A stretch of DNA of 64,000 bases from Membranipora membranacea (taxonomy: Eukaryota > Bryozoa > Gymnolaemata > Cheilostomatida > Membraniporidae), in NCBI GenBank assembly GCA_914767715.1, contig OU612072.1, positions 372,001 to 436,000 of the forward strand, given 5' to 3'. The position numbers and the translations under genes are program-made. The notes under the pieces were generated by a model. The model did not search any database and was not told where the DNA came from. It was given only the letters and a program-made list of their open reading frames with translations. Below, piece after piece: positions 4,205 through 62,800 of the stretch (positions are counted from its first letter, which is position 1; the number at the start of each line of letters is the position of its first letter).

Positions 4205-6931
4205 ATGATTTCATCGACTGAATCAAGACAATGTCTTGCAGTTATATGCATATCTGTGGTGACTATATTGCAGTTCTCAGTTGGAGGTTTGTTGCTACTA
4301 GGACTTCATTTTAACTGAGGCATTATGGCTCTTTGATGAACGCCCACATGACAGTAATTTTACATCTTGCCAATCCAATGACTAAATATTTTACCGCTGT
4401 GAGCCTGCATGCATCTTGGAGAGGTCCAGCTTTTCTCAAGAACCTGCACATCAGTCAAGTTTATCATAAGTTTTATTCAATTATCACATATAACAAATAT
4501 GTAGGCCTACTACTACTACATGAACCCTGATGAAACATATTCAGAATTTTTTGCTTCAGAAAAAGTTGATGACTCTCATTATACCAGATACAGTAGAATT
4601 TGCTATCACTGTTGTGATTTAGAAGAATGGACAGATTTATATTAAATGACTGTTTATTTATTATCATTGTAGAAGTATTAACACTTAATAAAGCTACAAC
4701 TACAGGTGACAGTTGTTATCTCGGTGAACCGCTCACAATAACATGTCAATCTTCTGAGATACCGGCTTCTGGTAGTGTATATGGTTTGGTTATGAAGTTG
4801 GACGATGCAGAGATTCAATGTGTTCGATTCAGCACGACATTTATTCTTGGGAATAATTGGCCAGTTCAAGTTGAAGCTCCTGTTAATGATGATCAGTGTA
4901 ACCTAACTGAGAATGATAAAACTCTGACTCTCAAACTCAACATCCCACAGGAACTGTCTACTCAATCAACAACTTGTATAAGTTCGACACAAGGATCTAC
5001 TCCGTTAGTTATCCAGCCCCAACCTGTATTAAGTGAGTATGTATGCAAGCAAGGGTAAAGCTTCAGACATATCCGATGGCTTTTCTTATATACAATGTTT
5101 ATCAAAGTTGGGACAGGGTTAACTCAATATGTAAGGTTCGGCGGTCTGTCAGTAATGGGTTGACTATTCCAATTGATAAACCTGCTAATTATAGTGATCA
5201 GTGCAACCTTCCCGGGATGGATGACTCTCAAACTCATTTTCAAAATACTCATCTGCATTTAACCTTGTTCAACATTTAATTATCATCTTGGAAGACAATA
5301 TAATATGTGGATAATACTAAGAAATAATAATTGGCAACAATAAGAAATTAATATATTATGTTTTATTTATACCAGTACCACCGACAAATCTGACATTATC
5401 TGTTGATAAAGAACCTGTAGTTGAGAATGAGACTATCACTGTCAGTCAGACTCTCCGAAAAGCTCTTACTTATATGGTAATTATACATTAGACACTACAG
5501 CAGGTTTATACCACTTCATCTCGTTATCTGAAAACTGCGATACATGAATTTGTTACACATGTTATTATAACAAAAAAAACCTTACCATGAGAACAGTACC
5601 GTGGAAGATAGAACATAATGATATACAGACAGTCAATGACTCATACAAAAGAGAATTAGTCCTGGTCGACCTCCATTATTAATTGATGTTTATTACAGAA
5701 TTAGTCAGAGAATCTGGAGAGACTCAATTAACTGGTGGATTATACACTACAAAGATGATCTTGTTAAGACAAAGGAAATCAGGCCTCAATGTGAGTCTAT
5801 ATGTATTTGATATCAAACTCAACCAAAACTTTCACCCTCATTAGCCGCTGTTTGATGTAGATGTAACTAGGTGTTGTAGATGCGTATATATGACCCACCA
5901 AATTGCAAGCTCTGTTATCAACTTGACTTTAATCATAACACAATTTCAGATATCACTCGTGACTTGGATCAGGTATCACAAAGATCTACAGAGAATAATC
6001 CCGAATCACCAACTCCACTGATATGTGATATAGAGGGTTACCCTACACCTAACTACACCTGGACATCAAATCGAACAGATATAACCTCTACAGAAACCAG
6101 CACACTAACTTTTAGAGAAACTAGAAATAATGGAGAGGTAGAAGAGGTTACTTGTGAAGGATCTGTTGATGGAGCTGGTGAGTGTTTACTCCTCCAATTC
6201 TGTTTTCATCTTGAGAATATTCAATAGACCTGGGGAGACACTAAAACGCTTTTGATCAATGTAATATCTTTGTGACTGTCTAAACTGGCTAAACATCAAG
6301 TTCTGGTACTTTGATATTTTGTGTCATAAAGTTAATTATTTCAATTTTGATTTTCTATTAGCCTATTGTAATTCGGGATTTACCAATGATCAACTATGTG
6401 TGTCTGTCCGTTGTATTTAGCATTTATCAAGATTTTAAACTTCCTTTGAATACTAATTCTTTCTATTCTGATTTTGATCAAAATGTTATTATTAAATTGT
6501 TGTGGGTTGTGTGTATTCCAAAATAGCTTTGCTCCTGGTATTATTATGTAACTTTGTTGATGGTTATAGTAATGAGTATTGTCACTTAATTTTTACTCTT
6601 AAAAGATAACGATACCTATCAAACTTGATCATCCATTATTGAGGTAAATGAATAAATCAACAGTTGAATAAAACGGGCAAGTGAGAAGTACAATTATACC
6701 TGTAAATCTTGTAGGTCTAAGTCCAATATCTATTACTTGGAAAATCATATGGCGTGGCACCAGCCAATCCTCTATCAACATTGTCCACTAGAACTATACC
6801 TACTGAGGCTGTACCGACTAAAGCTGTTTCCCATTCATCCGCAGCTACTATTGGTGGAGCATTAGGAGGAGTGATTTCGGCCATTTTTATAACTACTTCC
6901 ATCGGAATCTACTGCAGGAATAAACGCAAAG
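4205..6931 (+). pseudogene. Immunoglobulin-superfamily membrane receptor, pseudogene (paralogue of 59859-63704)
   Basis: Six exons match the gene at 59.9 kb one for one: signal peptide 4205-4286 (82 nt, MISSTESRQCLAVICISVV...), Ig-like domain 1 4673-5032 (360 nt, LGEPLTITC), first half of domain 2 5376-5476 (101 nt), second half 5699-5790 (92 nt), domain 3 5950-6177 (228 nt, CDIEGYPTPNYTWTSNRTD), and stalk plus membrane span 6715-6931 (217 nt, IGGALGGVISAIFITTSIGIYC). Splice sites are canonical and mostly phase 1. The paralogue's exons at the third, fourth and sixth positions are all multiples of three (108, 168, 201), while here they are 101, 92 and 217. The cysteine block of domain 2 is therefore damaged, and the stalk exon meets TAG at 6789-6791 when read in phase. 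Loss of function is inferred from these lengths; an unusual isoform is less likely. Confidence 0.8.
5100..5280 (+). pseudogene. Decayed partial duplicate of the Ig domain 1 exon
   Basis: Just after the domain 1 exon (4673-5032), the intron holds a degenerate copy of its second half. Both contain the block TGATCAGTG(T/C)AACCT followed by ACTCTCAAACTCA, in the same order and spacing (PANYSDQCNL versus PVNDDQCNL). It lacks splice sites and appears to be a failed internal duplication. Confidence 0.55.
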
Positions 6932-8440
6932 GTGAGATAGTACAGTCTGTACAGGAAATAAGGAACAACCCAAACTGCCACACTTGGTTACCTCAGATAC
7001 CAGCAGCTCAGCTTGAATTTAGCTCAGCTGTTACAAACTGCATCAATTGTAAATGGCAATATTTGTTCTTTATAGTTGACCCTGACTGTAAACTATCTCA
7101 CTCATGTATTCTTTAACGTAGACTGTGTTTAATTAAGTGAGACAGCCAACAAAAGTGTTTAGAAAAAATGGAAACTAGTTGTTAAATTTATGTAGACACT
7201 TGAAAGCAGTAAAATTCATAATTAGATCATGTGAGCCAGAGAAAAAGATACTTTACTACGTTGAATTGTAGGCAAACAATAGCAGCCCCTCATAATGAGG
7301 CAGCTAAAGAGAGGAAACTATTTGTGAAATTTATGTACACACCTGAATGCATTAATATTCATAATATTACTGAATTCTAACTTTAATTTATTGAAATATT
7401 TAAATTAAAGGGGTAACATGAAGTAGCTAAAGCGACAGAATAACTGCGAATAGTGTATTTACTTTCAATATTAGGCAGCATTGTGCAATCAAACATGTAA
7501 GTAAGACTGAGGGCAAAATATTCTTATTATAGGGAGAACACTATCAACCCCGCTATAAATAAGCGAAGATGATGAAAGATAAGTGTGTCTGAAATAATGA
7601 AGATTCAGTAAGCACCGAACCAAGGTATATAAGGAAGAGGATAGGGATGAAAGTTATCCAGTTGTTACAGGATTACACACACACACGCACGCACACGCAC
7701 ACACACGCACACACACACACACACACACACACTCGAGCAGCAGTACCATGGAGGATGAACAACTTATTATTTGAATACAGATCTGATTGTATTCAGACAT
7801 TTTGAAAAGATTGATTTTTTTTAGAACATCTTTATTGGATATACAATTAAGCCTTGAATTAACTGAACTACAGACAAAAAAGGGGCACTCAGTTATTTAA
7901 AGTCAAAGATGCTCAGTTGTAGTATCTCTTCCTTACTTTTCAAAAAGCTATCTCCTTCCTACAGTTTTTAATTCAGAATAACCACATTTGATCAACTGGA
8001 TTGTTATTCTGTCAGCTAACTATTCATTTCTTTTTTCTGTAAAAAACTCAAAATCAGACAAAATATCTCCAAGTTTATGTTTTTCTGTTTGGGCAGAGTT
8101 ACATTTCGACATGGTAAGTTACAGTGATCTGGTTTGTTTTTAGCATCAGTTTATGACATTATCTAAAAAAGCTTTTGAGGGCATGTTTGGAATAATTTTT
8201 TAACACATTTTAAATGCGATTTACTTTTTTTTTACGGTGTTTATTTCATCAATCAGTGATGTGGCATTGTTACGCAATGCAGTGCAAAGAGCCTATCTTT
8301 GTAGTTTCTATGGCATTGTGTACAGTTTCAAGCAAATTTCAACTGCCTTTTATCAAAGGAGTGGAGCAATTAACAAATGACAATGTAGGTGCTATACTGA
8401 ACTGAACAAAAGAATATTTCTGTTGGTTACTAAGTTTTCA
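6932..8440. other. No gene recognised; downstream of the Ig pseudogene
   Basis: AT-rich sequence. No equivalent of the cytoplasmic-tail exon of the intact paralogue could be recognised. The only distinct feature is the CA microsatellite at 7671-7732. Confidence 0.5.
7671..7732. repeat. (CA)n microsatellite with CG interruptions
   Basis: About 60 bp of ACACAC with interspersed ACGC units. Confidence 0.95.
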
Positions 8441-20549: not shown

Positions 20550-22135
20550 CTAATCGTCAACATTGGCCATCCTGTTCTGCCAAGGCACAGCCCCAACACC
20601 ATCAACATAGTCACAAATGCTTTCCCTTATGTCAGACGCTCTTCCACCAGGCCTATCTCCGTTGCGAACTATAGAGGGCAGAGCATCATCTGTAGTTGTT
20701 TCTGTCGGCTCTGCGTCTGGTTCTCCGCCTACAGGTGGTGCCTTTGATATTCTGAACGAACAAAAGAAAATATTACTAAAATCAAAAACAGTAAATTTGA
20801 CTCAAGTTTTGGTATTGTCAAATTATTTCGTCTTTCAATGCTTACGACCGGACTGCTACCATGGCCATGATAGCAGTCCGGTCGTGGACAGCCCGAGCCT
20901 AGTGATAATAAGATTTGTGTAGCTACCTGACAAGATTATGTAAGCAGCAGCACGCTAGAGCTAAGACTTTAACTTTGTCAGGTTCAAGATCGATCCTGCG
21001 GTATAAAATCCTCCAGGCTGATGATAAAATCCCGAAAGCATTCTCAATGAGCCGTCTGCACCGTGACAATCGGTAGTTGAAAATCTATAAGTGAAGACGA
21101 TTTACAATTAGAACTACAGGTTTAAATTTTTGAAGAGTTGGATAAGATGACAGGAGTCGGGTTCTTGCTAGATTGAAACTATAAAAAACCATCCAAAAGT
21201 AAACGAAAACAGGTAGTTTGATTGGCTTTGACAAATACGATCAAAGCTTTACATGTTAGAAAACTTACACGTTTCTGCTTGTTCAGGACTCTTTGCGGGT
21301 ACGGTCTCATGAGATAGGGTTTTAATGGAAACGCTTCATCTCCTAACATACAGTAAGGCAACGCTGTGTCAAAGCCTGCCGGCTTACGATCGTGGGGCAA
21401 CTGAATGACCCCATTCTGTATTGCTCTGTCTAAAGAACACCGAGCATATACTCCTCCATCGGAAGCTCTTCCCTGCGCTCCGATATCGACAAATGTGAAA
21501 CTGCAAAAAGAATTGGGTATCAAATCGATACCATAAAGATAGCACAACTTTCCAATTTCCAGCATATATTTTGATATTGTTTTCCTACTGCCGCTATCAT
21601 AGTACAAGCCCTCAGACTGCAAATCGGAGGAGTTGTGGCACATTGCTATCAACTCCTCTCCTCTTCAAAAGAGTAGAGTAGTTGATGATAACAAGGTGCC
21701 ACAACTCCCCGATTTTCAGTCTGAGGGCTGCAAAGAACCGCTCTCGAATTACCACGCGCATGTGCAAAATTAACAGTATAACTTTCCAAGTCATGGTTGT
21801 ATAATATTATATAAAATGGACTTGGAAATAATATAATAAATAAAGAGCAGCCTGACCAACCAAACTGGTCATTCAAACTACACCAGCTAAGCCATAGCAC
21901 TATGGTCAATATATGAATAAGGTTGTCCACCCCCTCCGTCACAGGACAAGCGAAACTACTCTCTCGTCGGGCTGAGGCGAGGCATTGTATTAAAATTACG
22001 CACCTGTAATTGGCGTCACAGAGGGCCATTAGTATGATCGATTCCTGACCTTTATAGTTGTGGTATTCAGAGCCGGCATTGTATGGCTTAGTTGTCACCA
22101 AATGTTTCCCGTCGATTGCTCCTACAATTACAAAC
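20550..22135 (-). CDS. Harbinger/PIF transposase (HARBI1-like DDE nuclease)
   Basis: Cuts and pastes the transposon. Four exons read leftward: 22135-22004, 21500-21269, 21084-20927 and 20751-20550 (TAG). Phases agree at every junction (2, 0, 2) and all introns are GT-AG. Exon a has VGAIDGKH with the first catalytic Asp, then [20 protein letters not shown]. Exon b has [14 protein letters not shown] and [17 protein letters not shown] with the second Asp. Exon c has [19 protein letters not shown] with the catalytic Glu and ends CCCLHNLVR. Exon d has the family's usual [17 protein letters not shown] tail. No stop or frameshift is seen in these exons. The N-terminal exons (helix-turn-helix region) were not found beyond 22135, so the gene may be truncated or they may be displaced by insertions. 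Confidence 0.85.
20844..20885. repeat. Perfect-arm hairpin in transposase intron
   Basis: ACGACCGGACTGCTA pairs with TAGCAGTCCGGTCGT around a 12-base centre. It lies in the intron between exons 21084-20927 and 20751-20550. Confidence 0.85.
21606..21736. repeat. Foldback repeat inside transposase intron
   Basis: GCCCTCAGACTGCAAATCGG...GAGTTGTGGCAC pairs with GTGCCACAACTC...CGATTTTCAGTCTGAGGGC. The arms are about 37 bp with few mismatches. It explains several spurious open frames at 21612-22101. Confidence 0.75.
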
Positions 22136-22239
22136 CTACATAAATAATGTCACACCAAATTAAAAGACCGCCCAACCTCAAAAATTAATGATTTTTAATT
22201 TTCAAATGAATTCAATGTCACAGTTTAATGTGACATACA

Positions 22240-26743: not shown

Positions 26744-26768
26744 CAAATTACCAAGCTAGATTATAATT

Positions 26769-27863
26769 ATGGCTAGAAGAGCAAGAAGAAGATCCATGGA
26801 ACAAGAGCTAATAAACAATAATATGGATGAACAAAATCAAAACGCAGAGGCCAATCCAGGACCAGCCGACATGTTGACAATGGCAACACTCGTCACGGCA
26901 CTCAGAGCAGCTACCCAAATAAACCAACCACGAAGACAACAGATTAAAGCACCCAAATATGATGGCATAGGTGATGTCGAACAATTCATATCAGCATTCC
27001 AAGAAATTGCTGACACCAATGAATGGACAAACCAAGAAACACTTATACATCTACGAGGAAGTCTATCTGGGAAAGCTTTAGATTGTGGGAAAGGAAACAA
27101 TATCGAAACTCTATTGTTAAATCTAAGAACCACATTCGGGCTAACAATAAAACAAGCCAGAGACAAGTTAGAGAAGATTAAGAAGAAATCTACACAAAGC
27201 TTTCTGGAGTATGGAAAAGAAATCAAGAATTATGTAGAGATAGCTTATCCTACCATGGCTGAAGAAGACCAAGAGGATATCGCGCTAGACAAATTCTTAC
27301 GAAATACCAACAACCAAGAACTCAGGAAACATTTGTGCACATCAAGACCAACCACTGTCCGGGCCGCAGTAACACTATCTGATGAATTCATGTCACTATG
27401 GAGTGAAAACAAGACCAGGGTGACGGCTATCTCCGAGGAACCGGACATGCTACTGGAGACTCTCAAAATCATGCAAAACACACTGAAGGAAATCTCGACA
27501 GGAGCGACAAAAACAGAAGATAACTCCCCATATTTCCCCAACCAATCATATCCCCTTCATATGATGCCCGGACAGCCCATGCTACCAGGACAGCAGATGA
27601 TGCCTCAGTTACCATTTAATCCCCAGGAGTTCTATGGACATCAGGATAACAGAATGTATATGCCAGGAGGATATACAGGACATCTGTTCCCAAACCCACC
27701 ATCAAAGAAGAACTTTACAAAGAAGACTCTAAGCTGTTTCCAATGTGGAGGGCCACATCTGAAAAAAAACTGTCCTCAGCTGAACCAAGGAGCTAATAGT
27801 CAGGAGAATTTCCAGTCTGGAAAAACCCAGCCGACTTTAAACTCCCAAGGTCCAGCTCAGTAA
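26769..27863 (+). CDS. gag: Gag polyprotein of Ty3/Gypsy element
   Basis: An intact frame of 364 codons starting 45 bases after the 5' LTR. It forms the particle and packages RNA. The N-terminal part is basic (MARRARRRSMEQEL). The middle holds a retrotransposon-gag-type helical region (YDGIGDVEQFISAFQEIAD, LRGSLSGKALD, REL-like LEKIKKKSTQSFLEYGKEI). A Met/Pro/Gln-rich linker follows near residues 265-305. A single zinc knuckle CFQCGGPHLKKNC lies near residue 323, spaced CX2CX3HX4C, one residue shorter than the classical spacing. The frame ends at TAA 27861-27863, 19 bases after the slippery heptamer that leads into pol. Confidence 0.9.
   Translation: MARRARRRSMEQELINNNMDEQNQNAEANPGPADMLTMATLVTALRAATQINQPRRQQIKAPKYDGIGDVEQFISAFQEIADTNEWTNQETLIHLRGSLSGKALDCGKGNNIETLLLNLRTTFGLTIKQARDKLEKIKKKSTQSFLEYGKEIKNYVEIAYPTMAEEDQEDIALDKFLRNTNNQELRKHLCTSRPTTVRAAVTLSDEFMSLWSENKTRVTAISEEPDMLLETLKIMQNTLKEISTGATKTEDNSPYFPNQSYPLHMMPGQPMLPGQQMMPQLPFNPQEFYGHQDNRMYMPGGYTGHLFPNPPSKKNFTKKTLSCFQCGGPHLKKNCPQLNQGANSQENFQSGKTQPTLNSQGPAQ
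27836..27842 (+). promoter_or_regulatory. -1 ribosomal frameshift heptamer between gag and pol
   Basis: TTTAAAC sits exactly in the X XXY YYZ register of the gag frame (ACT TTA AAC). The -1 frame is open from here through all of the protease, with no stop until the frame break in the reverse transcriptase. The heptamer is one of the most efficient known eukaryotic slip sites. A downstream pseudoknot was not modelled. Confidence 0.75.
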
Positions 27864-30309
27864 AGGATTCTGCTCAGCATGGACCTCGTCAGAAAGAGTC
27901 TAATCAGACTGCTAGGCGTGCTAAATCCTCTGGTAAAACCCAAGTTCGAGATGTGGATTGGACAAATTATGACTGCTTATACATACCTGGCAAAGTAGAG
28001 AGTCAGCCTCTCCAATACTTGCTTGACAGCGGCAGTACCGAAAATATCCTATCCAGACATCTCTATAACAGATTACCAGAAAGGATCAAAACACAATTAG
28101 CAGCAAATGAGACTACTGCCAGCCTTGCTGATGGAAGTGGCCTACTTGTTTATGGGACAATCACACTGACCTGCAAAATCAGGACTATTCATGTGACCAT
28201 ACTATTTAAAGTGGCCAACATCACTGATGACGCAATCTTAGGAATGAAATTCTTCACTGAAAATCAATGCACTATGATATTTGATAAAGGAATTCTAATC
28301 ATGCAGGACCAATCTCTGGCCTGTACCAGTAGAAATGGGGCCTTACTTTGTAACAAAGTACAGATTGTCTCCCCTACTACGGTACCTCCAGGCTCAGAAG
28401 CTCAGTTGGTCTGCAGATTAACTAGTCCCCCAGCTCACCATATCGGCATTGTGGAGAATTCAGCAGAAAATCATTCCGAAGTTATGCTGGCAGCTACTCT
28501 TACCAAAGTCAACTCTAGGAGAAGGATTCTTGTAAGGTGCTTAAATCCAAGGCAAGCCCCAATCACAATCAGGGCTGGGACCACATTGGGTTTATTCACT
28601 CCAATTACAGAAGATCAAATACACACTCCCCAAGAGATACAGACAAACCACAGAAGCAACTCACCAAGAGAGGACAACTCTATAAAGTGTCACCATATAA
28701 ACTCCTCAGTCTCTTTACCTGAACATATATTCCCTCTGTATGAGAAAGCTGTAAAAAGCTGTAACTCTCCTTCACAGGAACAGACTCTGGCCAGAATTCT
28801 GGTGGAAAATCAAGATGTATTCAGTAAAAATGACTCAGACATCGGCAGAACTAATCTTGTATCACATGGGATACCTGTGGAACCTGGCACCAAACCAATC
28901 AGGCAGCCTCCTAGAAGGCTAGGCATGGAAAAGGACCAGGAGGTGGAAAGACAGGTCAAGGATTTGGTACAGAGAGGACTAGTAGAGCCAACTAATTCAG
29001 GATGGTGTAGTGGGGTGGTATTAGTGAAGGAAGGTTCAGGTTGGAGACTGTATAGATTACAGGCAACTGAACGCTGTCACAAATCAGGATGCCTACCCCC
29101 TACCCAGGATTGACGATAGCTTAGATGCACTCTCCGGCAGCATGCTGTTCAGTACTTTGGACATGGCGTCTGGGTACTGGCAGGTCCCATTGGATGAGGA
29201 TGCACAGGAGAAGTCAGCATTTGTAACCAGAGGAGGGTTATGGAAGTGGAAAGTGCTGCCGTTTGGATTAACTTCCGCGCCAGCAACTTTTGAAAGGCTG
29301 ATGGAGCAAATACTATCAGGATTACAGTGGAACAGTTTGCTACTTTACCTGGATGATGTTATAGTCTTTTCACAAGACTTTGACTCTCATATCACCAGGT
29401 TGGAAACAGTATTCAAACGGTTCAGGTCTGCAAATCTTAAGCTGAAACCATCCAAGTGTGAACTTCTACAAACAGAGGTAAAATATCTTGGGCACATGGT
29501 CAGCAAAGATGGAGTGTCTACAGATCCGGCAAAAGTTAAAGCTGTAATGGATTGGAAGAGACCACAGAATCAATCAGAAGTAAGGACCTTCTTATGATTT
29601 GTGGGATACTACAGGAAGTTCTGTCCTGACTACGCTACAGTTGCCAAACCCATGAACAAATTGACCATCAAAGGATCAACTTTTGTATGGGGCAGTGAGG
29701 AGGAGAAAGCTTTTCAAACTCTAAAAAGCTTCATCACTGAATCACCAGTACTTGCGTATCCAGATTACAGTAAAGACTTTATATTAGACACAGATGCTAG
29801 CCTAGATGGAGCAGGAGCTGTCTTGTCTCAGATCCATGATGGTGAGGAGAGGGTAATAGCTTACTGGAGTAAGACTTTTTCCCCGGCAGAGAGAAATTAC
29901 TGCGTCACCAGGAGGGAACTGCTAGCAGTCATATTATCAGTCAAGCATTTTAGACCATACCTGTATGGCAGAAAATTCCTCTGCAGAACTGATCATGCAT
30001 CTCTACAGTGGCTCTATAAGCGAAGGGAACCATCTCACCAAGTGGCCAGATGGCTGGAAACTTTGTCAGAATTTTCTTTCTCCCTACAACATAGAGCTGG
30101 TATAAAGCATGGAAATGCAGATGGTCTATCAAGACAATGTATGGACTGTAAGCAGTGCACCAGAATAACAGACAGAGATGGAGGACCACATTGGTAAGAG
30201 ATGGTCATATCTCACCAGATGGTATTAGACGATGGTATAGTTTTGGAAGGGAGAGGAGAGAAGACAACTACCATTAAATCTATACCACAATCTTTGGTAC
30301 TGGAAGGGA

Positions 30310-30640
30310 GGAAACCTGAATATTACGATTGGATCAGGCCCACTTACACAAAAGGGATAGATCCACATTATCCACAGTCTACCTCTGCGACCATGCCTCA
30401 GAACTCAGGACTATTTGATAGAGAAGAAGAGAGAACCCAGCACCGATACCATGATAAGATAAGACCCACCTATATGAAAGGGATTGATCTTATAGATGGT
30501 AACCCGCCAGTTCAGACTTCAAATCTACAAAACTCAGAAAGAACACATCAAGGATTGGAAGGGAGAAGCAAGCTTCATGGTGAAAGAATCAGGCCCACCT
30601 ACATGAAAGGGATGGATTCTCACAACAGACAGCCAGCCAA
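30310..30640 (+). repeat. Three protein-level repeats in pol spacer between RNase H and integrase
   Basis: WIRPTYTKGIDPH, KIRPTYMKGIDLI and RIRPTYMKGMDSH occur at intervals of about 45 residues, each preceded by a charged stretch. This spacer is unusual in length for Ty3/Gypsy pol and has no recognised domain. The repeats look like duplicated linear motifs. Confidence 0.8.
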
Positions 30641-32207
30641 CCCTATTCAACTCCAAGATACAGAAGTCCACAGAATCCAAATATCATCAGATCTAGAGAA
30701 AGACATCATTCCCTTACAATCAAAAGAAGGAAGTGAACTCTCTCTCATCAGAAAGATGGTAATATCTGGAGAAACACCACGGAAAGAAATCATCAACCAA
30801 GGGAGCACAGAATTTAAAAAACTCTGTGAAATGCTGCCAACTCTAAGGATCATGAATGGTATCCTTAGAGTAAGAATACAAATCAATAGGAGAGATGTTT
30901 GGAGTATTGTCGGCCCTACAGAGATGAGACCATTGGTTATACAACAACACCACACTCAACACCATTCTGGCATAAACAAAACCTATCAAAGAATCAAATT
31001 GACTTGGTTTTGGCCTGGAATGGTGTCACAGATAAGAAGAGCAATCAACTCTTGTGAAATCTGCCAGGCAGCTAAGCACAGCAGGGATATCAAAACTAAT
31101 TATCAGCAAAGGTTATTCGCTGGAAGGCCTTGGCAAGTGTTAAGTCTAGATCTGGTAGGACCATTTCAGAAGACTCCGCGAGGAAACACCATGATTTTAG
31201 TGATATCAGATCATTTCACAAGATGGAAAGATGCTATTGCAATACCAAATGGAACCACTTTCACTATAATTGAGACTCTGGAAAGACAAGTATTCAATTA
31301 CTTTGGACTTCCAGAGAGGATACATACAGACAGAGGGGCACAATTTGAAGGCCAGCTAATGAAAGAACTGTGTCAGCTCTGGAAAGTGGATAAAAGCAAA
31401 ACTACACCTTACCATCCTCAAGGTAATGGTGTAGTGGAACGAGGAAACAAAGACCTAGGAAACTCTCTTCGCTCTCTCTTACTGGAAAGAGATGATGAAG
31501 ACTGGGATTTGGTGCTACCACACTTAACCAGGTCTTTGCGAGGGGTTCCTCACAGCTTTACAGGTGAAACTCCTAATTATCTCATGTTTGGGAGGGAGCT
31601 CACACTTCCAGATAATCTGCTATCAGGTCCGTCAGAAGATACAAGCAGCAGAGAAGACTATGCTGCCAGAATCCATAACAGACTAACGGAAGCTTATGAG
31701 ATGCTACGCCACAAACAAGAGGAAATTAGAACTTCAGACCTTCAAGAACCACCATTGCTCACAAAAGGTGATCAAGTATGGATAAAAAACAAGAGACACC
31801 GGAAAAATACTACAGCAAAGTTGCAGCCTAAATGGATTGGTCCCTACACCATTATTCAGGCCAACTCTAACCATACCTACCTACTGGAAATCAACGGCAG
31901 ACAGACTCTAGAGCATGAAGGGAGACTTAAGCTTCATGTCTAAGCTACCCAAAGTTGGGGAAGAGCTCCTCGAATCCCAGAAATAACAAAACAACCCACA
32001 AGATCTGGGTATCCAAAGCCAATCCCCAAACAGATAGCTGAAACAGAAGAAACTCTACCTAGTCACTTACCAGAGGTCTCACTCGATACAAATCCAGCTC
32101 AAGCAGTCCCAGAATCCTGGAGTGAAGTAGAAGTCACTCCCAAAATCACAAAGAAAGAATTTCTCCCAGTCATTTCAGAAGAAAATGAAGAAAATTCTGA
32201 ACCGGAA

Positions 32208-33740
32208 ATGGAAACAAATGAGATAACTACACCCGCCACAACCGGAAACAATAGAACAGCTAGAAACAGGAAAATCCCAGAAAAACTTCGGGATTTCGTT
32301 GTCTACAAAGTGTCCCAAAGTGAAACTACTTCTACTTTGGATGACAAAGATTGGCCACGCCTCCTACCACAAAAATTAGATAATTACCCAATTAGACAAC
32401 TGCCTAAATTGGGGAGAAATTATCCAATTAAGAGGCAGAGTTACGTAACTCCCAGCATAAAAAGCCCTGCAGCAGCTGGAGAGAGTCAGACAACATCAAC
32501 AACCGCAACTATGAGGACTAAATATCAATCAGCAGACACTCTCAGCTCAAGCTCAAGCTCCAGCTCTTCAGATAACGACTCGGATATGGAATTGGACAAG
32601 GTTTTGGCGGAGATGGATAAGGTTCTGGATGACACTACGAAACAAGGACATGAACTAACTCAGCTGCTGAAATCACCCGAAAAGAAACCACTTATTACTA
32701 GGATCAAAGCTCCAACCCCATCCAAGGTGAGCAATGAACCTAAAAGTGACATTTATTCTTCACTGGGCTTAGAGTTAGTCAGCAAAGAACTTGATTTCCT
32801 AAGGGAGACAAGTAAAGTTGATAACTTAGATAAAAAGGAGCCTGTTTTCTCTAGGGAGACAGGTCGGGCAGGAGCCAAGCTCTCCACTGTAGACAATCGT
32901 AAAATCAGAATTAGTAGAATAAAAATGGCTAATTATGATGTTGATTCTTTACAGGGGGACAATTATGTGTCAGAGAATACCATCAGGAAACAGAGGGAGC
33001 TGTATCACTACATCTTAGACCACAACAAGTGTCGAACATGTAACATAACAGTTGACAAGTCAGCCGAACAAGCTCGATTACATTCCTGGACACATTATGT
33101 CATACATGCCTGTCGGGAGTGTGATTTCACCGCAGCCTATAGTACATCTGTATGGAGACACTCCAAAGTACACACGCATAGAAACTACGGTGCTAAAGTG
33201 GATAGAGAATCATGGCAGGTGGCTCGAGATTATCTTCAGCTACAGAAGACTTGTCCCCCTCTCCCCTATAAACCAGAGACCTCTCACAGGAAGCCTTCCA
33301 TACCAAAGAGGACTCACCACTCATCTCCCAGACGAAAGCCTTCTCCAAGGAAATTCTCTCCTGAGATGGGCACTATATTCAAGAGGATGGTCCATACAAC
33401 TACCAAGCCTGTATCTCCCATACCTCCTAGACGGCGAACTCCTGTACCAGTACCAGATGGCAGACTAAGACCAGAAGTTAAACAGACAGTGTTCGAGAAG
33501 CCTACACCAGACATCCAGAAACAACCAGTACGATCTCCAGTCAATCAACATCCTGAGAAGCAACCATATCGAGTCTCAGCCGGTGAACAACAGAGGTCCT
33601 TGAACCAAAACAACAAGAATCTAGCATTCTTACACCACATGAGAGCTTCTCATCAACGGATTATAGCTGACATCGAGTTGGAAATAGCTATCAACAAAAG
33701 GGAGCAAGTTAAACTCCAGACTCCACATATCACATACTAA
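32208..33740 (+). CDS. Extra retrotransposon frame with two C2H2 zinc fingers
   Basis: 510 codons from the first ATG, but the frame is open from 31944, directly after the pol stop and in the same frame. It may therefore be a C-terminal pol extension reached by readthrough or cut off by a late nonsense change. The N-terminal part (RNRKIPEKLRDFVVYK) resembles the usual last residues of Gypsy pol. Then come a serine run and acidic patch (near 32540-32600), a predicted helical acidic region, two finger-like units at about 33030-33180 (first CX2CX13HX3H, second the canonical CX2CX12HX3H in CRECDFTAAYSTSVWRHSKV), and a Pro/Arg/Lys-rich tail. It has no signal peptide, furin site or membrane span, so it is not an envelope. 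A nucleic-acid-binding role is inferred from the fingers and basic tail. Confidence 0.75.
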   Translation: METNEITTPATTGNNRTARNRKIPEKLRDFVVYKVSQSETTSTLDDKDWPRLLPQKLDNYPIRQLPKLGRNYPIKRQSYVTPSIKSPAAAGESQTTSTTATMRTKYQSADTLSSSSSSSSSDNDSDMELDKVLAEMDKVLDDTTKQGHELTQLLKSPEKKPLITRIKAPTPSKVSNEPKSDIYSSLGLELVSKELDFLRETSKVDNLDKKEPVFSRETGRAGAKLSTVDNRKIRISRIKMANYDVDSLQGDNYVSENTIRKQRELYHYILDHNKCRTCNITVDKSAEQARLHSWTHYVIHACRECDFTAAYSTSVWRHSKVHTHRNYGAKVDRESWQVARDYLQLQKTCPPLPYKPETSHRKPSIPKRTHHSSPRRKPSPRKFSPEMGTIFKRMVHTTTKPVSPIPPRRRTPVPVPDGRLRPEVKQTVFEKPTPDIQKQPVRSPVNQHPEKQPYRVSAGEQQRSLNQNNKNLAFLHHMRASHQRIIADIELEIAINKREQVKLQTPHITY

Positions 33741-48590: not shown

Positions 48591-50199
48591 TACTAAATAA
48601 CATTTATTTACCTGAGAGCTACAACAAATTGATTCAATCAAGTCCATTCACAGCTGTTCTAATTTCATTCTTCTTCTTCTTGTGAAGCCGAGTTGGCTCA
48701 TCATCTCTTCATCGTGGTCTTATGTGTCTGTGAAGTAACTGATTGGTGCCACTGAGTCTGACTGCTGTTCAGAAAGTTGACTACTAGCAATATCGATAAC
48801 TAACTCAGTGTTCTCCAACACAGATATTGTAATCAGTATGAAGTTATTGAACAGGCCAATTAGAAAAAAGTAAGATGTAATGGGCCAATCATATCAAAGC
48901 CTGTGAAAATTCGAAGAGAGAGGGCAACTCTTCATTTTGGAAGGTTTTAACGTGAGAGGGCAATTCCGAACCAGTTACCTTATTACCCTGGAGTAGTGAA
49001 AACTACAGTTCCTGTCCGTAAGTGGAATGATGATACCACAGAGAAGCTGCTATCTGCTATCGAAACTACTGATTGGTCTGTGCTGACAGACAATGTAAGT
49101 GACTCTTCTGAGAAAGCAGAAATAATATCAGATTACCTAGCTTTTTGCCTTGATGAATGCGTTCCAACTGTTAATCTAGTTGTCAGTAATGACAAAACAT
49201 GGATAACTGGCAAGATCTGAACGCTCCTGACGGCTTGGACCGCTACACTAAATTCATGCGATCGTGCCAAACTCAATGATATAGAAACTGAGCTACAATG
49301 TGAAATACGGAGAGCAAAAAGAAGCTATGCTAAGACCGTAGAGCAGGAATTCAAAACAAGTGATAGGCAATCCTGGAAACGTTTGAAAGAAGTTATTAAA
49401 CTAAACAATCAGCCTCCAAAGGAGTGTAATGTAGACCCTAACGCTCTTAATGAGTTCTATCTTCGTTTCAAGAAAACCCAGGACCCTCCCAAGCTACCTC
49501 CACTCTGCAGCGATAATATCCCTAAGCTGGTTGCTGGTGACGTCATCAAAACCCTACGTCAAACTGACACCAGAAAAAGCTGTGGACCAGATGGCATTCC
49601 AGGTAAATAACTCAAAACTGCAGCCTATGCACTTGGTGACCCTCTATGTGATTTATTCAATGATTGTATCAAGGAGGGTAAATATCCAGATGTATGGAAA
49701 AATGCTGTTATCAAGCCAATCCCAAAGTCAAACACTGCAAATGTGGCCAAGGACTATCGACCGATAGCCCTTACATCAGTCTTCTCTAAGACCTTTGAGC
49801 GAGTCACGAAGCCACTACTTACCAAATGTTTGACAGATGACAGTCAATTTGCCTACAGAGAGCATCGCTCAACAGAAGATGCACTCACTGTCCTCTTAGA
49901 TACGTTTAAGGAGCACCTCGATGCAAATTCTAAGAACTATGCACGCTGCCTCTTTGTGGACTTTACTAGCGCTTTTAATACCATAAGCCCTACACTTCTC
50001 GTAGACAAGCTGAAGTCCGCTTCAATACACAACGACATGCTGAACCTGATACATAGCTTCCTGGTGAATCGTAAGCAGCGGGTGGCTACGAAAGAAGCCA
50101 AATCTCTCGTTAAGACATCTTCAACAGGCTCGCCCCAGGGCTGTGTATGGAGCCCAATCCTGTTCTCAATTTATGCAATTTATGTCATTTATATGCCGG

Positions 50200-53100
50200 T
50201 GTAGTATTGTAAACTGTCCCCCGCGCGAAAACAACCCCGGGACACTTTACAATATTGTAAACTGTCCCGGGGACACTTTACAAAAAAAACAGGCCTATTG
50301 TAAACTGTCACCCCCTATTGTAAACTGTCCCCCCTATTGTAAACCGTCCCCCCCTATTGTAAACTGTCCCCCCTATTTGTGACTGTCCATATCAAGGGCC
50401 CAGATTTTTATCACCATTCTAAATGGGTCAGATCATCTAACTGGAGCATACCATGATGTTCTGGCTGCCACTATGATGGCCAAAGTTGTACCATGGGATG
50501 GTGGTGGTATCTCATTGAAATTATGAATGAGTGTATAACGACACTTTTTCATATGGTACTTTGTAGATCTATTTTTCGCAAACTTTAGCTGTTATTTGAA
50601 GCTCCTATGATTTAGAGATGTCTGGTTTGCGAAGAAAGGTGCACTAAGCCAACAGTGAATAGATGTGTAGTTGCCACATCACAGAACACACATACTTTCA
50701 TTGCAGGTTCATGAGCTGCGCGAAAACAACCACCCCATTCATTCATCATAAAATCTACCTCCGTCAAGCATTTGCCTAGGAGTGATGACAGTCAGAAATA
50801 ATTACTTTTGAGCTTTTCATATTGTGAGGCCTGGTATTGCACTGTAAAATATTGCTTAAGCCGCGAGAAAACAACCACCCCCCAAGCTGTCTTATCTTGT
50901 CTATCTGTTAGAAAGTCTCAAACATAATTAACCATGGTTTTGCAGCCATAATGTGATTGTCATGAGGTGACTGTCTACCAAATTTTAGATTGAAAGGTTA
51001 AAACTTAATGACACAATGGATGATATGTCATTCTTGGCAAATTCATGAGCCGCGCGAAAACAACCACCCCATTCATTCATCTTAAAATCTATCTCGACCA
51101 AGCATTTGGCTGTGAGTGATGACAGTCAGTCACAATTGTGACTGGTAGAAATAACCACTTTTGAGCTTTTCATATTGTGGGGCCTGGTATTGCACTGTAA
51201 AATATTGCTTGAGCCGCGCGAAAACAACCACCCCATGGGAGGGATGGCAATCAGTCACAAGTGTGACTTGGAGAAATAACCGCTTTTGAGGTTTTCATAT
51301 TGAGACTTTTTAACAGATAATCTTTATAAGACAGCTTGGGGGGTGGTTGTTTTCACGCGGCTTATGCAATAGTTTACAGTGCAATACCAGGCAGCACAAT
51401 GTGAAAAGCTCAAAAGCGGTTATTTCTCCAAGTCACACTTGTGACTGACTGTCATCACTCACAGCCAAATGCTTGGTCGAGGTAGATTTCAAGATGTATG
51501 ACTGGGGTGGTTGTTTTTGCGCGGCTCATGAACTTGCAAAGAACGACATATCATCTGTTGTGTCATTAAGTTCTGACCTACTAATCTGAAATTTGATACA
51601 CAGTCACTTTATGACAATCACAATATGGCTGCCAAATCATGGTTCATTATGTTCGAGACTTTTTGACAGATAATCTTTATAAGACAGCTTGGGGGATGGT
51701 TGTTTTTGCGCGGCTTAAGCAATGTTTTACAGTGCAATACCAGGCTGCGCTATATGAAACCCTCAAAAGTGGTTATTTCTCCAAGTCACACTTGTGACTG
51801 ACTTTCATCACTCACAGGCAAATGCTTGATTGAGGTAGATTTCAAGATGCATGAATGGGATGGTTGTTTTCGCGCGGCTCATGAACTTGCAAAGAACGAC
51901 ATATCATCCATTGTGTCATTAAGTTCTGACCTACTAATCTGAAATTTGGTACACTGTCACCTTATGACAATCACATTATGGCTGCCAAACCATGGTTCAT
52001 TATGTTCGAGAAATTTTGACAGATAATCATTATAAGACAGTTTGGGGGGTGGTTGTTTTCGCGCGGCTCAAGCAATATTTTACAGTGCAATACCAGGCCG
52101 CACAATATGAAAAGCTCAAAAGTGGTTATTTCTACCAGTCACAATTGTGTCTGACTGTCATCACTCACAGCCAAATGCTTGGTCGAGGCTCATTATGTTT
52201 GAGACTTTTTGACAGGTAATATTTATAAGACAGTTTGGAGGGTGGTTGTTTTCGCACGGCTTAAGCAATTGGTTTATATGCAGGGTTACAGTGTTAAGTG
52301 TGACAAGTAATGCAGCAGAAGCCTTTTCAGCAGGACACACACAAAAATACTGAATAGCAGTGCCATTCTAGATGGGTGTTTTGGGGGGGGGGGGGGGGTT
52401 GTTTTCGCGCGGCTTATTGAGCTTCTGTGAAACGCAAAACACCTGTTATGCTGATTACATTGCGAAGCATTCATCCGAAAATGGACAAATAGTATCATTA
52501 TGACGCCTACACAATGGTTGTAAAATAACATAAGATTCCACCTGTCATTTTTGAGCATACAGTTTCAAAAAGTATCTGTTGGGGGATGGTTGTTTTTGCA
52601 CGGCTCAAACAAAGCTTTGTTGAGGTGTAGCGAAAATTCTGGCCTCAACGTATTACGAAAGCAGCACTAGTACACATTGCCGCTAGTTGGTTTGTTCAGC
52701 CATCACTGCGTGAGAGAGTATATCATCATCAAGGTGCCTAAGTACGATTTTGATAATTGTTCTTACTTCGGCAATGGTAACTGTTTGCAAGGCACTCCAA
52801 GAACAGCGCGTTCTGCAATGTGGGAACTACACATTTTTTCACTGTTGGCTTTGTGCACCTTTCTTCGCAAGCCAGACATCTCTGAATCATAGGAGCGTCA
52901 TATAACAAATAGTGTTTGTGAAAAATAGATCTATCAAGTACCACATGAAAAAGTGTCGTTATACACTCATTCATAATGTCAATGAGATACCATCACCATC
53001 CCATGGTACAACTTTGGCCATCATAGTGGCAGCCAGAACATCATGGTATGCTCCAGTTAGATGATCTGACCCATTTAGAATGGTGATAAACAGCTGGGCC

Positions 53101-53261
53101 CTTGATATGGACAGTCAAAAATAGGGGGGGCAGTTTACAATAGGGGGGGGGGACAGTTTACAATAGGCCTGTTTTTATTGTAAAGTGTCCCCGGGACAGT
53201 TTACAATATTGTAAAGTGTCCCGGGGTTGTTTTCGCGCGGGGGACAGTTTACAATACTACA
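50200..53261. mobile_element. Large foldback element with head-to-head motif arrays
   Basis: 3,062 bp inserted into the LINE RT. The outer arms, about 490 bp each (50200-50690 and about 52775-53261), are near-perfect inverted copies starting TGTAGTATTGTAAACTGTCC. Just inside the ends are several TATTGTAAACTGTCCCCC units. The core holds units of about 350 bp carrying the motif CCGCGCGAAAACAACC(A)CCCC: five copies on plus (50221, 50715, 50861, 51050, 51214) and nine on minus (about 51343, 51506, 51694, 51860, 52048, 52240, 52397, 52584, 53222). Orientation switches near 51300. Many units also contain the palindrome-like TCACAAGTGTGACT. Flanks are CCGG (50196-50199) and CTGG (53262-53265), a possible 4-bp target duplication with one CpG-type change. 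No protein frame. Superfamily unknown. Confidence 0.9.
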
Positions 53262-54076
53262 CTGGTACCATCGATGGGTAACTATCACCTTATCAAATAT
53301 GCAGATGATACAATCTTACTAGAGCTATGCTATCCTAATGTACCATCTACATTACCTGCTGCAACAGAATGTCTAACCAGCTGGTTCAACTCGCAAGATC
53401 TGCTCCTCAATGCCTCTAAGACTAAAGAACTCATATTTACCAACATGAGAGACAACCGTGCATGTGATCCCCTGGTAATCAATGGCACAGTTGTCGAGCA
53501 GGTCGAGTCATTTGTATATTTAGGTACCACTGTTGACCACAAGTTGAGCTTTAAGGCACATTCTGAGGCAGTAATCAAGAAAGCTCGTAAGCGCCTGTTT
53601 ATTATGAAGAAGTTGTCCTCTCTTGACATTTCTAAACCAATCAGAATGCGATGTTACTATACTTTCATTGGATGCGTTTTTATTTATCATTTATGTACAT
53701 TATTTGGCCGTATATCCAAAACATGTCGCAACTCCATTAATGATGTTATATCGACCGCTAGCTTTTTAGCTGACTGTGAAGTCCCATCTCTGTGTGAGGT
53801 TTTTACCAGAGTTTTTAAGAACCGTTGTCTTCGTATGTATGCAACAGACAATGAGCCAATATTAGCCCTAGCTACGCTTCCATCAGGGCGCTACTGTAAT
53901 ATCAAATGTAGGATAGAGCTACGGAGACAATGCTTTAGAGCACAATGTGTGAAATTTTTAAACTCCGTTTTCTTCAAAAGATAATATTTTTATAATGTGC
54001 AGACTTTTATATCACTAGTAACTTTTTAGCTCCACAAAACCAATATTTCTTAACCATAACGGCAGAGACAGAATAA

Positions 54077-54078
54077 AG

Positions 54079-54106
<28 letters not shown>
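54077..54106. repeat. (TA)n microsatellite at LINE 3' end
   Basis: About 14 TA units directly after AATAAAG. Confidence 0.95.
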
Positions 54107-54110
<4 letters not shown>

Positions 54111-54111
<1 letters not shown>

Positions 54112-54839
54112 GTACTGTGGCTTGTGCATCAATTTTGTTTATTATTATGATGATTCTGCCAAATATTTTGTCGTTGCAGATTTGTTTTATAAGCTTTGTA
54201 ATAATTTACAAGAGGATTGCAATTAATTTATTAAGAAAATACCATAAATTCATCAGTTTATCAGCCCGGCTTGTTTTGTGCATATTTTTTATCGCTAATC
54301 TACAATACTGTTAAAATGAGTGCTGTGTTGATTTGGCACAGACCTAGACTGCGATATTAATTTTGGCGAAAATCCGCAATCTTCCTTACACTCAGATTTG
54401 GATTTTTGGCAGAAGATTTTCACAAAAATTTGATTGTAACATCTAAACTAGATTGAAAAACATCCATATGTTTTGTAAAATGGTGTTGTGACTGCAGATT
54501 GACTATGACAAGTATGATCAGCTTCAAACAGACAGACCAGTCTACTAAAAAAGGAGAGTATACTAGCTCAAACAGAATCCAAAGCTCTGTAAAACCATTC
54601 TAAGAATTTTTGACAATACCACCTTGTCTATAACATCTTTTCTTCTCCCTATCCCTCTCTGGATGGCAGAGAATTCGGATACCATTTCTAGCAGTCATGA
54701 CCGTGATAGTCGGTCATTTATTTTTCTCTTTACTGATGTTTAATGCCTTACAAACTCTTTATAATTTGTTGTAATTAAACCGAAATAAAATGTCTTGAAG
54801 GGAACAAACCATTTAGTTGTAAATTAAGTTGACGGAGGA
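54111..54839. other. No gene recognised
   Basis: AT-rich sequence between two LINE remnants. Confidence 0.45.
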
Positions 54840-59858: not shown

Positions 59859-62800
59859 ATGGCAATTTGGTGTGGCATATTGAGATTGCCATTGATATTT
59901 GGGGTTCTCATAACTCTTGTTCAACAAGTGGTGACACAAGGTTAGTTCATACTGATAGTGTTAAATGCCAATTAATTTAAATAAAAAAACTTCAATGTTG
60001 AACTGAAATCATGTCAGATTATTTATCATGCTCAATTAAGATTTATGATGTTCAAGAGAACCTAAATCTTTTGAGATCTAGAATAAATTGCTTTGAAAGT
60101 TCTAGGCAGAGGCATGAATCATGGCAAACCAAGCAATGAAAACTTGATGGTTTTTGATGTAGGGTTGTGGTCAGCATCTCTCAGTAATACCAGTTATACA
60201 TGACCTCTGCCCCTGATTTCGTTCCTGTCCTTACAGGCGGTAAGCACAGCTGTTTTCTTTTTGTAGGGACGGTGGTATTCAACGCTGAGACTACTACTAC
60301 AGGTGATAGTTACTACATCGGTCAACCACTCACAGTAACCTGTAAGCGTATAGGGCTCCCAGCGTCAGGAAGTGTAACGTTTGGTGTATCATTCGTAGAC
60401 GATGGATCTGTATTTGCCGGCTGTTTTCGTTCTTTTCAAAATTCGGACCAGTGGACACCCTCCAACCTACCACCTGGTGACAGTTTCCCGGATGGTATAA
60501 TGCACCAACCAGATTGTGATGTACTTGCTAACGATGACACTGCTACCATAGTACTCAATATAACTCAGGAGTTGGCTACATACAATATGAAGTGTGTAGA
60601 CAATGCTGGTATTATATCTGACGCATCCCTCAGCATTGAAACTGTGAAAGGTATGGTATGATTCTAACAGCGATATAGCAATCCACATAGTGCAAACTAA
60701 ATTTCTCCATGTAACATATTGCAATATTTCATGATAAATATGACCTGATATGAGTAACCAAAGATCACCACCATCATGTCCAAGGAGTTTTTATTTTAAT
60801 GACCGAATGTGAGTTTTCCTATCTGTTTCTTGATTTTGTAGAGCCACCACAGAACCTTGAGATGAGCTTCAGTCCTGAGCAAATCATAGAGAATCAGACT
60901 CTCACAGTCACTTGTGCTTCATCTTTTTCAGCAAGCTCTTATAAATATGGTAAGGTTTGCACATGTAGTATTTTCACTGACCAACACTAGGTACTCGTCA
61001 CTGGGTAGAGTGACATTTCTAGCTAGAGCCAAACTATCTAGGGCCTGAGTTGTCACTTATCTATCCAGAGGGAACAATTTTAACTTTTGGCTTCAAAACA
61101 TGCCTGAGCACTGTCACTGGCCAACACAAAGGCATTATTGTCAAAAGAAAGGAGAGCAACAGATACCTAACTCGTTATTTGAAAACTAATTAGTCTAAAG
61201 GTATAAGCCCCTACTACACATGAGTTTTGTAACACAATGTACACGAAGATAGTTTAATTTCTGCTATGCAAAGATGTTCGATATTAAAATTGTTGCTTCT
61301 GTATATCTATGGGTTTCGAATTTGATATCAGAGGCTGGAGACTTCTCTACAATAGATGATTCTATTTTTGGCAGCGCATAGTCCCTGACATATTTTTACA
61401 TGGTCCTGTCATTGATCTATCCACAACCCCCCCCCCCCCCCCTATCCCTCCAGCAGTTGGTGACCTTCAGTCATTTATTGGTAATCAGCAACACCAGCAG
61501 CTTGTGAGTGATTGGCGTATTGCTGGTCCCTACAGTTGATTTAATAAACACATTTTGCTTGATTAATAAACACATTTGTTGATTTAATAAACACATTTAA
61601 TAAACACTTTTGCAAGGGTCAGAAAACAATATATTATATTGTTTTCTGACCCTTGCAAAAGTTCTCCGAAGACATGCTTCAAGCTTACCAAAATTGATGT
61701 TTGGGAGACGCTCAACAGTACAAAAAACATGGCAATATGTAGAGATTAAATGTTCTCATACTAAAAAAGCCCACAAAATCTAAACGGTAGCTGGTGTTTT
61801 TACCTGATCACAGAGCATAGATAGGTTCAAATATTTGTTTTTCTGTAACAGAATTAATAAAAGATGGTGCCACTACAGAAATTCCAAGTGGAGAATATAC
61901 ACCCACAGCTGAAGACAGGAATAACGGTTTCAAAGTTAAATGTTCAGATACTGCCAATGAGGAATGGAGAGTTATATTCGTCCGAGACGTAGAAGTAACG
62001 ACTGAGGTCTTCCCGAGATGTAAGTATCTATTCTAAGTGTTTACAGTACATCAGGAGTGATATACTAATGATATATGAATTTACATACTCATATAATGGT
62101 TCGATCACTTTGTATTCCTCCTAATCTAGCTCCTATGTATCCATTGTAGACATAACACGAGACTGGGATCAGTCAGAATCCCGCCCGATAAAGCTCAACC
62201 CTGCAAACCCACAGCCGTTATCTTGTGATATTGAGGGCAGACCAACACCTACTTATACCTGGACTTCCAACAGAACTGATCTCTCTGGTGTGACTGGGAA
62301 TACATTGTCATTCGAAATGAACTCTAGAGAGAATAAAGATATAGAGGAGACCACATGTACAGCATCTGTAGATGGAGTCAGTGAGTGTGATCTATTGATT
62401 AATATTCCATGCTGCACAATTTACAAAACAATCTTCTACTTGTCTCCAGTCTGTACCCACAGGTATGTTTTTTCTTCACCATTTTGAGTGATTTCTCTTT
62501 TTCAGCCCTGCAGCAGCCGGTTCTCATTACATGGATAATCACATGGGATGATGAGGCACCGACTAACCCTCCGCCAAGTCCAGGTACAACTGAGGGAAAA
62601 AATGCCTCACCAGTCGGAGCAGCTGTAGGCGGAGCAGTGGGAGGGGTTATAGTCCTCATTATTATCATTGCTATCATCGGATTCTGCTGCTGGAAGAAGC
62701 GCCAAGGTAATGGACTCGGCCAATATTGTGACCTTTGAACATGTCATATATATATGGTAGATGAAGATCAGGGTGATCATTTATCTTTTGTCTTTTACTT

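Follow-up and report, generated by a model that had tools for sequence, protein, structure and literature searches.

What kind of element carries a mirrored array of one short motif across most of its length, and what might that motif do? The question is raised by positions 50200..53261 of the window, the 64,000-nucleotide stretch analysed here (C8:372001-436000 of a 339-Mb assembly in 18 contigs). Alignment with other genomic copies fixed the boundaries of the element (3,062 bp, ends TGTAG...CTACA), and judged in this way the limits of 50200 and 53261 given by the original prediction are exact. Comparison of 23 two-ended copies identified the flanking CCGG at 50196..50199 as the left target-site duplication, and CTGG at 53262..53265, one transition from CCGG at a CpG, as the right one. 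Read from the window alone, the duplication had at first been taken as GGT or 6 bp, a reading that was dropped once other copies fixed the ends.

The element interrupts a plus-strand frame whose 5' part (49611..50199) matches a reverse transcriptase (RVT_1, E 6.2e-21) and whose remainder lies at 53266..53984. A protein search with the first part of this host frame gave 129 matches; among the 120 listed, many were without a name and the named ones were fish proteins of 35-49% identity. One unnamed match, P0098, continues uninterrupted through the insertion site, and the flanks joined at the 4-bp duplication match it across the site: they form an open stretch of 435 codons in which the ...MPVPSMGNYHLIKYADDT... 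of P0098 recurs. Since the joined flanks restore an open reverse-transcriptase frame, the element is an insertion: removing it together with one 4-bp copy leaves the host frame whole. Directly left of the insertion (50170-50195) the host frame reads SIYAIYVIYMPV where P0098 has SIYVQDMPV, which is a small local repeat expansion. P0098 had no confirmed relative in GTDB or IMG/VR contigs. Elsewhere in the window, the plus strand of 26760-33740 holds the frames of a Gypsy-type LTR retrotransposon (aspartyl protease, RVT_1, RNase H and integrase (rve) domains), and the minus strand of 21179-22146 holds two frames with DDE_Tnp_4 matches (E 2.7e-6, above the Pfam cut-off, and E 0.0029, below it), which we take to be a probably broken PIF/Harbinger-type transposase. 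Frames at 4618-7116 and 60188-62487 resemble immunoglobulin-like cell-surface receptors, for which Pfam gave only a weak Ig match (62125-62484, E 2.7e-5, 25 bits against a cut-off of 30). These receptor-like frames, the retrotransposons and a depletion of CpG suggest that the host is an animal, a marine sponge being no more than a guess.

Each end of the element starts with the tip and has its first motif copy 21 bp further inward; inverted TTGTAAACTGTCC pairs follow, then tandem ~20-bp TTGTAAACTGTCC copies, an arm piece of ~340 bp and finally the motif array. The outer terminal inverted repeats lie at 50200..50315 (plus strand, with motif copy 1 and the inverted TTGTAAACTGTCC pairs) and at 53147..53261 (minus strand, with motif copy 14), and the complementarity between 50196-50315 and 53146-53265 amounts to 98% over 120 bp. 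Tandem ~20-bp repeats TATTGTAAACTGTCCCCCC occupy 50296..50391 (plus strand), with fewer copies in the right arm, and the left inner arm (50348..50687, plus strand), in which a coding signal is absent, is 93% complementary to the right inner arm (52810..53149, minus strand). Alignment of the complete outer arms, 50196-50687 with 52810-53265, shows 87% likeness in 492 columns and includes one 36-bp gap, in agreement with the predicted arm length of about 490 bp. The subterminal TTGTAAACTGTCC repeats and the recurrent AGTCACAAGTGTGACT palindrome noticed at the outset are likewise present: 14 of the 18 window matches to the former (up to 2 mismatches) fall inside the element, and the latter occurs there at five places. 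The palindrome AGTCACAATTGTGACT lies at 51128..51143, and related copies begin at 51253, 51431, 51784 and 52137.

The motif itself, CCGCGCGAAAACAACC, was found 14 times in the window when up to 3 mismatches were allowed (mean of 0.03 matches in 100 shuffled windows). All copies lie between 50221 and 53240, seven are exact, and five on the plus strand are followed by nine on the minus strand, so the head-to-head arrangement stands as predicted. Between the terminal copies, the left array (50716..51229, plus strand) has motifs at 50716, 50861, 51050 and 51214, the orientation switches in the centre (51230..51344), and the right array (51345..52603, minus strand) has motifs at 51345, 51509, 51698, 51862, 52051, 52244, 52397 and 52588. 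The successive spacings are 495, 145, 189, 164, 131 (centre), 164, 189, 164, 189, 193, 153, 191 and 637 bp; the alternation that had been described is present, but it is less even than claimed. In 14 two-ended loci including the window, same-strand spacings peak at 164 bp (77 cases) and 188-189 bp (66 cases), defining a repeat unit of 353 bp with two copies of the 16-bp motif at spacings of 164 and 188/189 bp. The two halves of this unit have the motif in common and are otherwise without clear similarity.

As had been noted, the element has no protein frame: the longest stop-to-stop frame wholly inside it is 92 aa, and a 52-codon frame common to both arms has no codon-position bias (10 differences, split 4/3/3). 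No protein was matched in a search with a translated array piece, nor did an Rfam search of 49000-54500 give a match. The arrangement might be kept as a source of a long double-stranded RNA hairpin feeding small-RNA silencing, and in the fold predicted for 50201-53260 (MFE -1885 kcal/mol) 82% of the bases are paired. However, any inverted repeat so long folds likewise, and pairing does not explain the conservation of the motif letters described below; we hold this explanation to be highly improbable, the predicted pairing being a consequence of the structure and not evidence of function.

The objections that the element might be a single copy or an assembly artefact both fail. A search of the genome with the first 505 bp from 50196 gave 409 arm candidates, and the best-scored 40 arm matches that were read covered nearly the whole arm at 94-100% (the 40 other rows among the 80 scored were a short inner palindrome and not the arm). 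These 40 arms represent 33 loci including the window, which are the best matches and not a random sample. The 20-bp tip occurs at 326 places with up to 2 mismatches (163 forward and 163 reverse; 3 for the reversed-pattern control, 2 + 1), and the exact motif occurs 904 times (465 + 439; 0 + 0 for the control). Both ends are present in 23 of the 33 loci and ten are not two-ended; L043, whose right "end" is an internal repeat, was left out of the two-ended set and is still counted among the 48 arms considered below. Every one of the 23 two-ended copies has a single orientation switch, with 6-36 motifs in 1,284-6,892 bp, and exactly one plus-to-minus switch is found in 29 of the 33 loci; L023, L034 and L044 have only plus-strand motifs, and L031 alone is irregular and breaks the single-switch rule. 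A sister copy of the window element, L022 on contig C6, differs from it by 16 mismatches and 2 gap openings in 3,063 columns (99.2% identity); it lies in the opposite orientation between other flanks and has its own CCGG/CCGG duplication. Such a full-length match with other flanks means that the whole arrangement moved or was copied as a unit and, together with the differences between the arms, excludes an artefact of two identical halves. An ordinary MITE is a short element, well under 1 kb, of near-uniform size, and the size range of the 23 copies bears out the original statement that the structure matches no recognised standard MITE.

Many arms at different sites differ by less than 1%, and only 4 of 48 arms (24 loci, L043 included) are closest to their own partner, so recent spread dominates over copying between arms. 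Motif counts per arm vary (5/9, 6/16, 9/27, 23/13), and arm lengths that differ so freely fit unequal exchange within an arm. A second process is suggested by one case: the outer 1.4 kb of L016 (1,440 bp) repeats the opposite arm in inverted form at 98.3%, and this stretch carries an inserted reverse-transcriptase piece in both arms that is missing from L017, as if one L016 arm had been rewritten from the other. L016 and L017 have the same flanks and lie about 190 kb apart on C7. The range from 6 to 36 motifs and the apparently rewritten arm would both suit an array that has no function, that is, a satellite-like repeat resized by unequal exchange in a foldback transposon, its motif conserved by chance or by short-range homogenisation; Tetris of Drosophila virilis (PMC4079207) is a precedent. 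This reading is taken up again with the motif conservation. Outside the genome, the motif and tip patterns were found in 3 + 3 IMG/VR contigs, with one chance-like match each and arrays absent, the longer arm and unit patterns were not found in the viral, phage and bacterial collections searched, a 21-mer gave nothing in GTDB contigs, and the phage collection held no match.

The aligned ends across copies read TGTAGTATTGTAAACTGTCC, and the duplications next to them are identical 4-bp sequences in 14 of 23 copies (CCGG/CCGG 11, CCGT/CCGT 2, ACGG/ACGG 1). CCGT and ACGG read the same way left and right of the element, which makes them direct duplications that lie outside the inverted repeat. The remaining nine pairs are unequal and differ at one base (CAGG/CCGG in six copies; CCGG/TCGG, ACGG/ACTG and, in the window, CCGG/CTGG in one each). 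CAGG stands on the left and CCGG on the right in L015, L016, L017, L018, L027 and L042, always so on the plus strand of the genome, and the class represents at most five events since L016 and L017 share flanks. It involves a transversion in one duplication copy and is hence not CpG decay, and plain duplication does not explain it.

Ends and targets of this kind have been described for Ginger1 (Bao, Kapitonov and Jurka 2010), for which the consulted portion of PMC2836005 gives 4-bp duplications of CCGG (75%) and CCGT/ACGG (24%), TGTNR ends and terminal inverted repeats of about 40-270 bp. The present element is alike in its aligned TGTAG ends, with 326 tip matches at up to 2 mismatches, in the CCGG and CCGT/ACGG duplications of the 14 copies, in the 98% complementarity of its outer 120 bp and in its near-identical copies, which suggest recent activity. 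It differs in being without a transposase gene and in having ~0.5-kb arms (about 490 bp) that run into mirrored motif arrays; PMC2836005 mentions non-autonomous copies of one family, and its main text uses neither "subterminal" nor "internal repeats". The fit of ends and target site to Ginger1 is specific as a match of sequence features; the original prediction had recognised no standard type. IS481EU elements of parabasalid hosts also have TGT...ACA ends, with duplications of 4 bp or ~15 bp, so that the ends and the 4-bp length fit them too; Ginger1 is favoured on the basis of the CCGG specificity and the probably animal host.

A Ginger1 transposase is Gypsy-integrase-like, with an OTU or Ulp1 domain, and is encoded between the same ends. 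The expectation of a full-length copy with a transposase between these termini was disappointed: comparison by eye of 150 scored of 613 rve candidates with 111 of the 326 tips revealed no rve within 12 kb inside a tip. As no coding copy with these ends was found among those compared, the membership of Ginger1 is putative and read from ends and target. At C3:32991021 and C5:24290991 an rve place does occur some 5 kb away from a tip, but in both cases on the outer side. Twenty exact tips are without G at position 24; most of them seem to be point mutants, and no rve place of the list is close to any of them. Several candidates for a coding copy were rejected. L044 (G000:C5:26796100-26803000) carries, about 5.8 kb inward of its left end, a domain of MULE transposase type (E 1.3e-8). 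However, 10.8 kb passed without a right end or a minus-strand motif, and apart from one 93-bp piece all matches to the other copies fetched stop by position 1500; it is taken as a truncated left end beside an unrelated MULE gene, probably a chance neighbourhood. The frames of L016 are the reverse transcriptase present in both arms. C2:25086178-25097857 has mirror arms around an 8.7-kb middle, of which 3.6 kb were examined and had no frame above 93 aa. This middle, of which L054 is part, contains a 100% inverted repeat whose arms of at least 1,421 bp reach the edge of the examined 3.6 kb; it is a palindrome of very recent origin or else a fold in the assembly. L023, L024 and L034 have one end only, and the one frame scanned in each had no transposase domain.

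The motif is better kept than the sequence around it. In the 68 young units compared, which come from 14 loci, its non-CpG columns have a conservation of 0.980 versus 0.940 outside, and its CpG columns one of 0.963 versus 0.814; the motif stayed above the outside in 200 of 200 draws of one unit per locus. Three AAAACAACC 9-bp windows within young units rank 88, 1 and 111 of 361, and the contrast is real on average and not extreme. The window is CpG-poor (observed/expected 0.44). Across 228 motif copies, 158 are exact and 50 of 87 changes are CpG transitions, the commonest change being G7 to A (30 of 228 copies). An old, strongly diverged unit at 52244..52603 (minus strand) agrees with two young units in no more than 222 and 232 of 381 columns, yet 14-16 of the 16 positions are still alike in each of its three motifs; 303 16-bp windows outside the motifs average 8.3 and 8.8 of 16 in the same comparison (maximum 14 and 13), part of the contrast coming from gaps in the flanks. 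The 175-bp half of the old unit agrees with three young halves at 55-66% of aligned positions, with scores of 23, 7 and 6 that none of 500 shuffles each reached (means -31 to -33; other-class controls, 4 and 81 of 500). Its 137-bp half is weakly related, the scores against four own-class segments being reached by 0, 1, 20 and 4 of 500 shuffles (other-class control, 93 of 500).

Retention of the motif while the surrounding repeat decays supports docking of a putative protein. Functionless resizing accounts poorly for a motif that recurs in contexts without shared flanks, that is kept in an old unit otherwise near 60% and that holds its CpGs while other CpG columns decay, and we therefore consider it quite unlikely. 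We take it instead that selection probably acted on the motif during the spread of the family, and at this level a role in transposition would most simply explain it; that foldback arms can hold additional transposase sites has a tested precedent in Galileo (PMC3688188).

A protein of the host might also be the one that docks. The E2F consensus is TTTSGCGCS, the motif complement fits it (GGTTGTTTTCGCGCGG contains TTTCGCGCG), and plant MITEs with E2F sites are known; the motif could be a site for a host transcription factor, for example an E2F-like one, that times transposition or drives transcription. The transposase would then bind only TTGTAAACTGTCC, whose repeats cluster near the ends, as is to be expected of transposase sites. 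This we judge unlikely: the conserved stretch extends through AAAACAACC, past the E2F core, the G7-to-A change (30 of 228 copies) affects the E2F-like core and leaves the rest unchanged, and both terminal repeats of the window element contain a copy of the motif, as expected of a site for transposition.

On balance, the element is probably a non-autonomous foldback transposon of Ginger1 type that is moved in trans, with the motif serving most likely to bind the transposase or else a protein that partners it. A transposase resembling Gypsy integrase and encoded elsewhere would join the TGTAG/CTACA ends to CCGG-like sites and leave 4-bp duplications, and many bound motifs on two opposed arms, at near-nucleosome spacing, could help recruit the protein, raise its local concentration and pair the ends; the arms could in addition be rewritten from each other, as in L016. 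The original proposal of a binding platform for a transposase encoded elsewhere accordingly draws support from the conservation of the motif, whereas the transposase gene with the same termini that it called for was not found among the tips and rve candidates compared; this and the unequal duplications of nine of the 23 copies count against our explanation. It is conceivable, if rather doubtful, that a Ginger1 parasite has turned its whole body into a landing platform able to grow, on which it competes with coding copies for the transposase or for a host cell-cycle factor, and that it may have outlived or silenced those copies, its CpG-rich opposed sites being selected in a CpG-depleted, probably methylated genome.

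The long, internally repetitive inverted arms that make up most of the element place it in the foldback structural class, in which three known systems are comparable. Galileo of Drosophila (P superfamily; PMC3688188) likewise has foldback-like long inverted repeats with several transposase-binding sites, demonstrated by footprint and gel shift; it differs in superfamily, in the binding itself, which at the window motif is a matter of inference, and in number, its two additional sites lying in the first two of four tandem arm repeats as against 6-36 motifs per element here. Tetris (PMC4079207) is also a non-autonomous foldback element with variable-number tandem repeats in both arms and without a known transposase copy, but it has 8-10 bp duplications and ~220-bp repeats, and no such 16-bp motif is described in the part of that source at hand. 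Tm1 of root-knot nematodes, a Mutator/foldback family with non-coding and coding members, is similar in its composite inverted repeats of short tandem motifs and different in its 9-bp duplications and Mutator (Phantom) transposase (excerpts of PMC3169594). One table in PMC8268682 gives a satellite of Crassostrea gigas the label DNA/Ginger1; a foldback element with Ginger1 ends was not among the literature matches listed, and the motif and tip letters had no match in the literature searched. Foldback elements with repeated arm sites or motifs are thus known, within the extracts consulted, from the P and Mutator superfamilies and from the unclassified Tetris, and their combination with Ginger1 ends is new among the literature matches listed. 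The element joins the retrovirus-integrase-like ends of Ginger1 with the foldback architecture of P- and Mutator-type transposons, which we found described only separately. If the motif is a transposase site, the family offers a natural range of elements that have otherwise similar ends and between 6 and 36 binding sites, and why foldback arms exist, and whether more sites bring more transposition, becomes directly testable.
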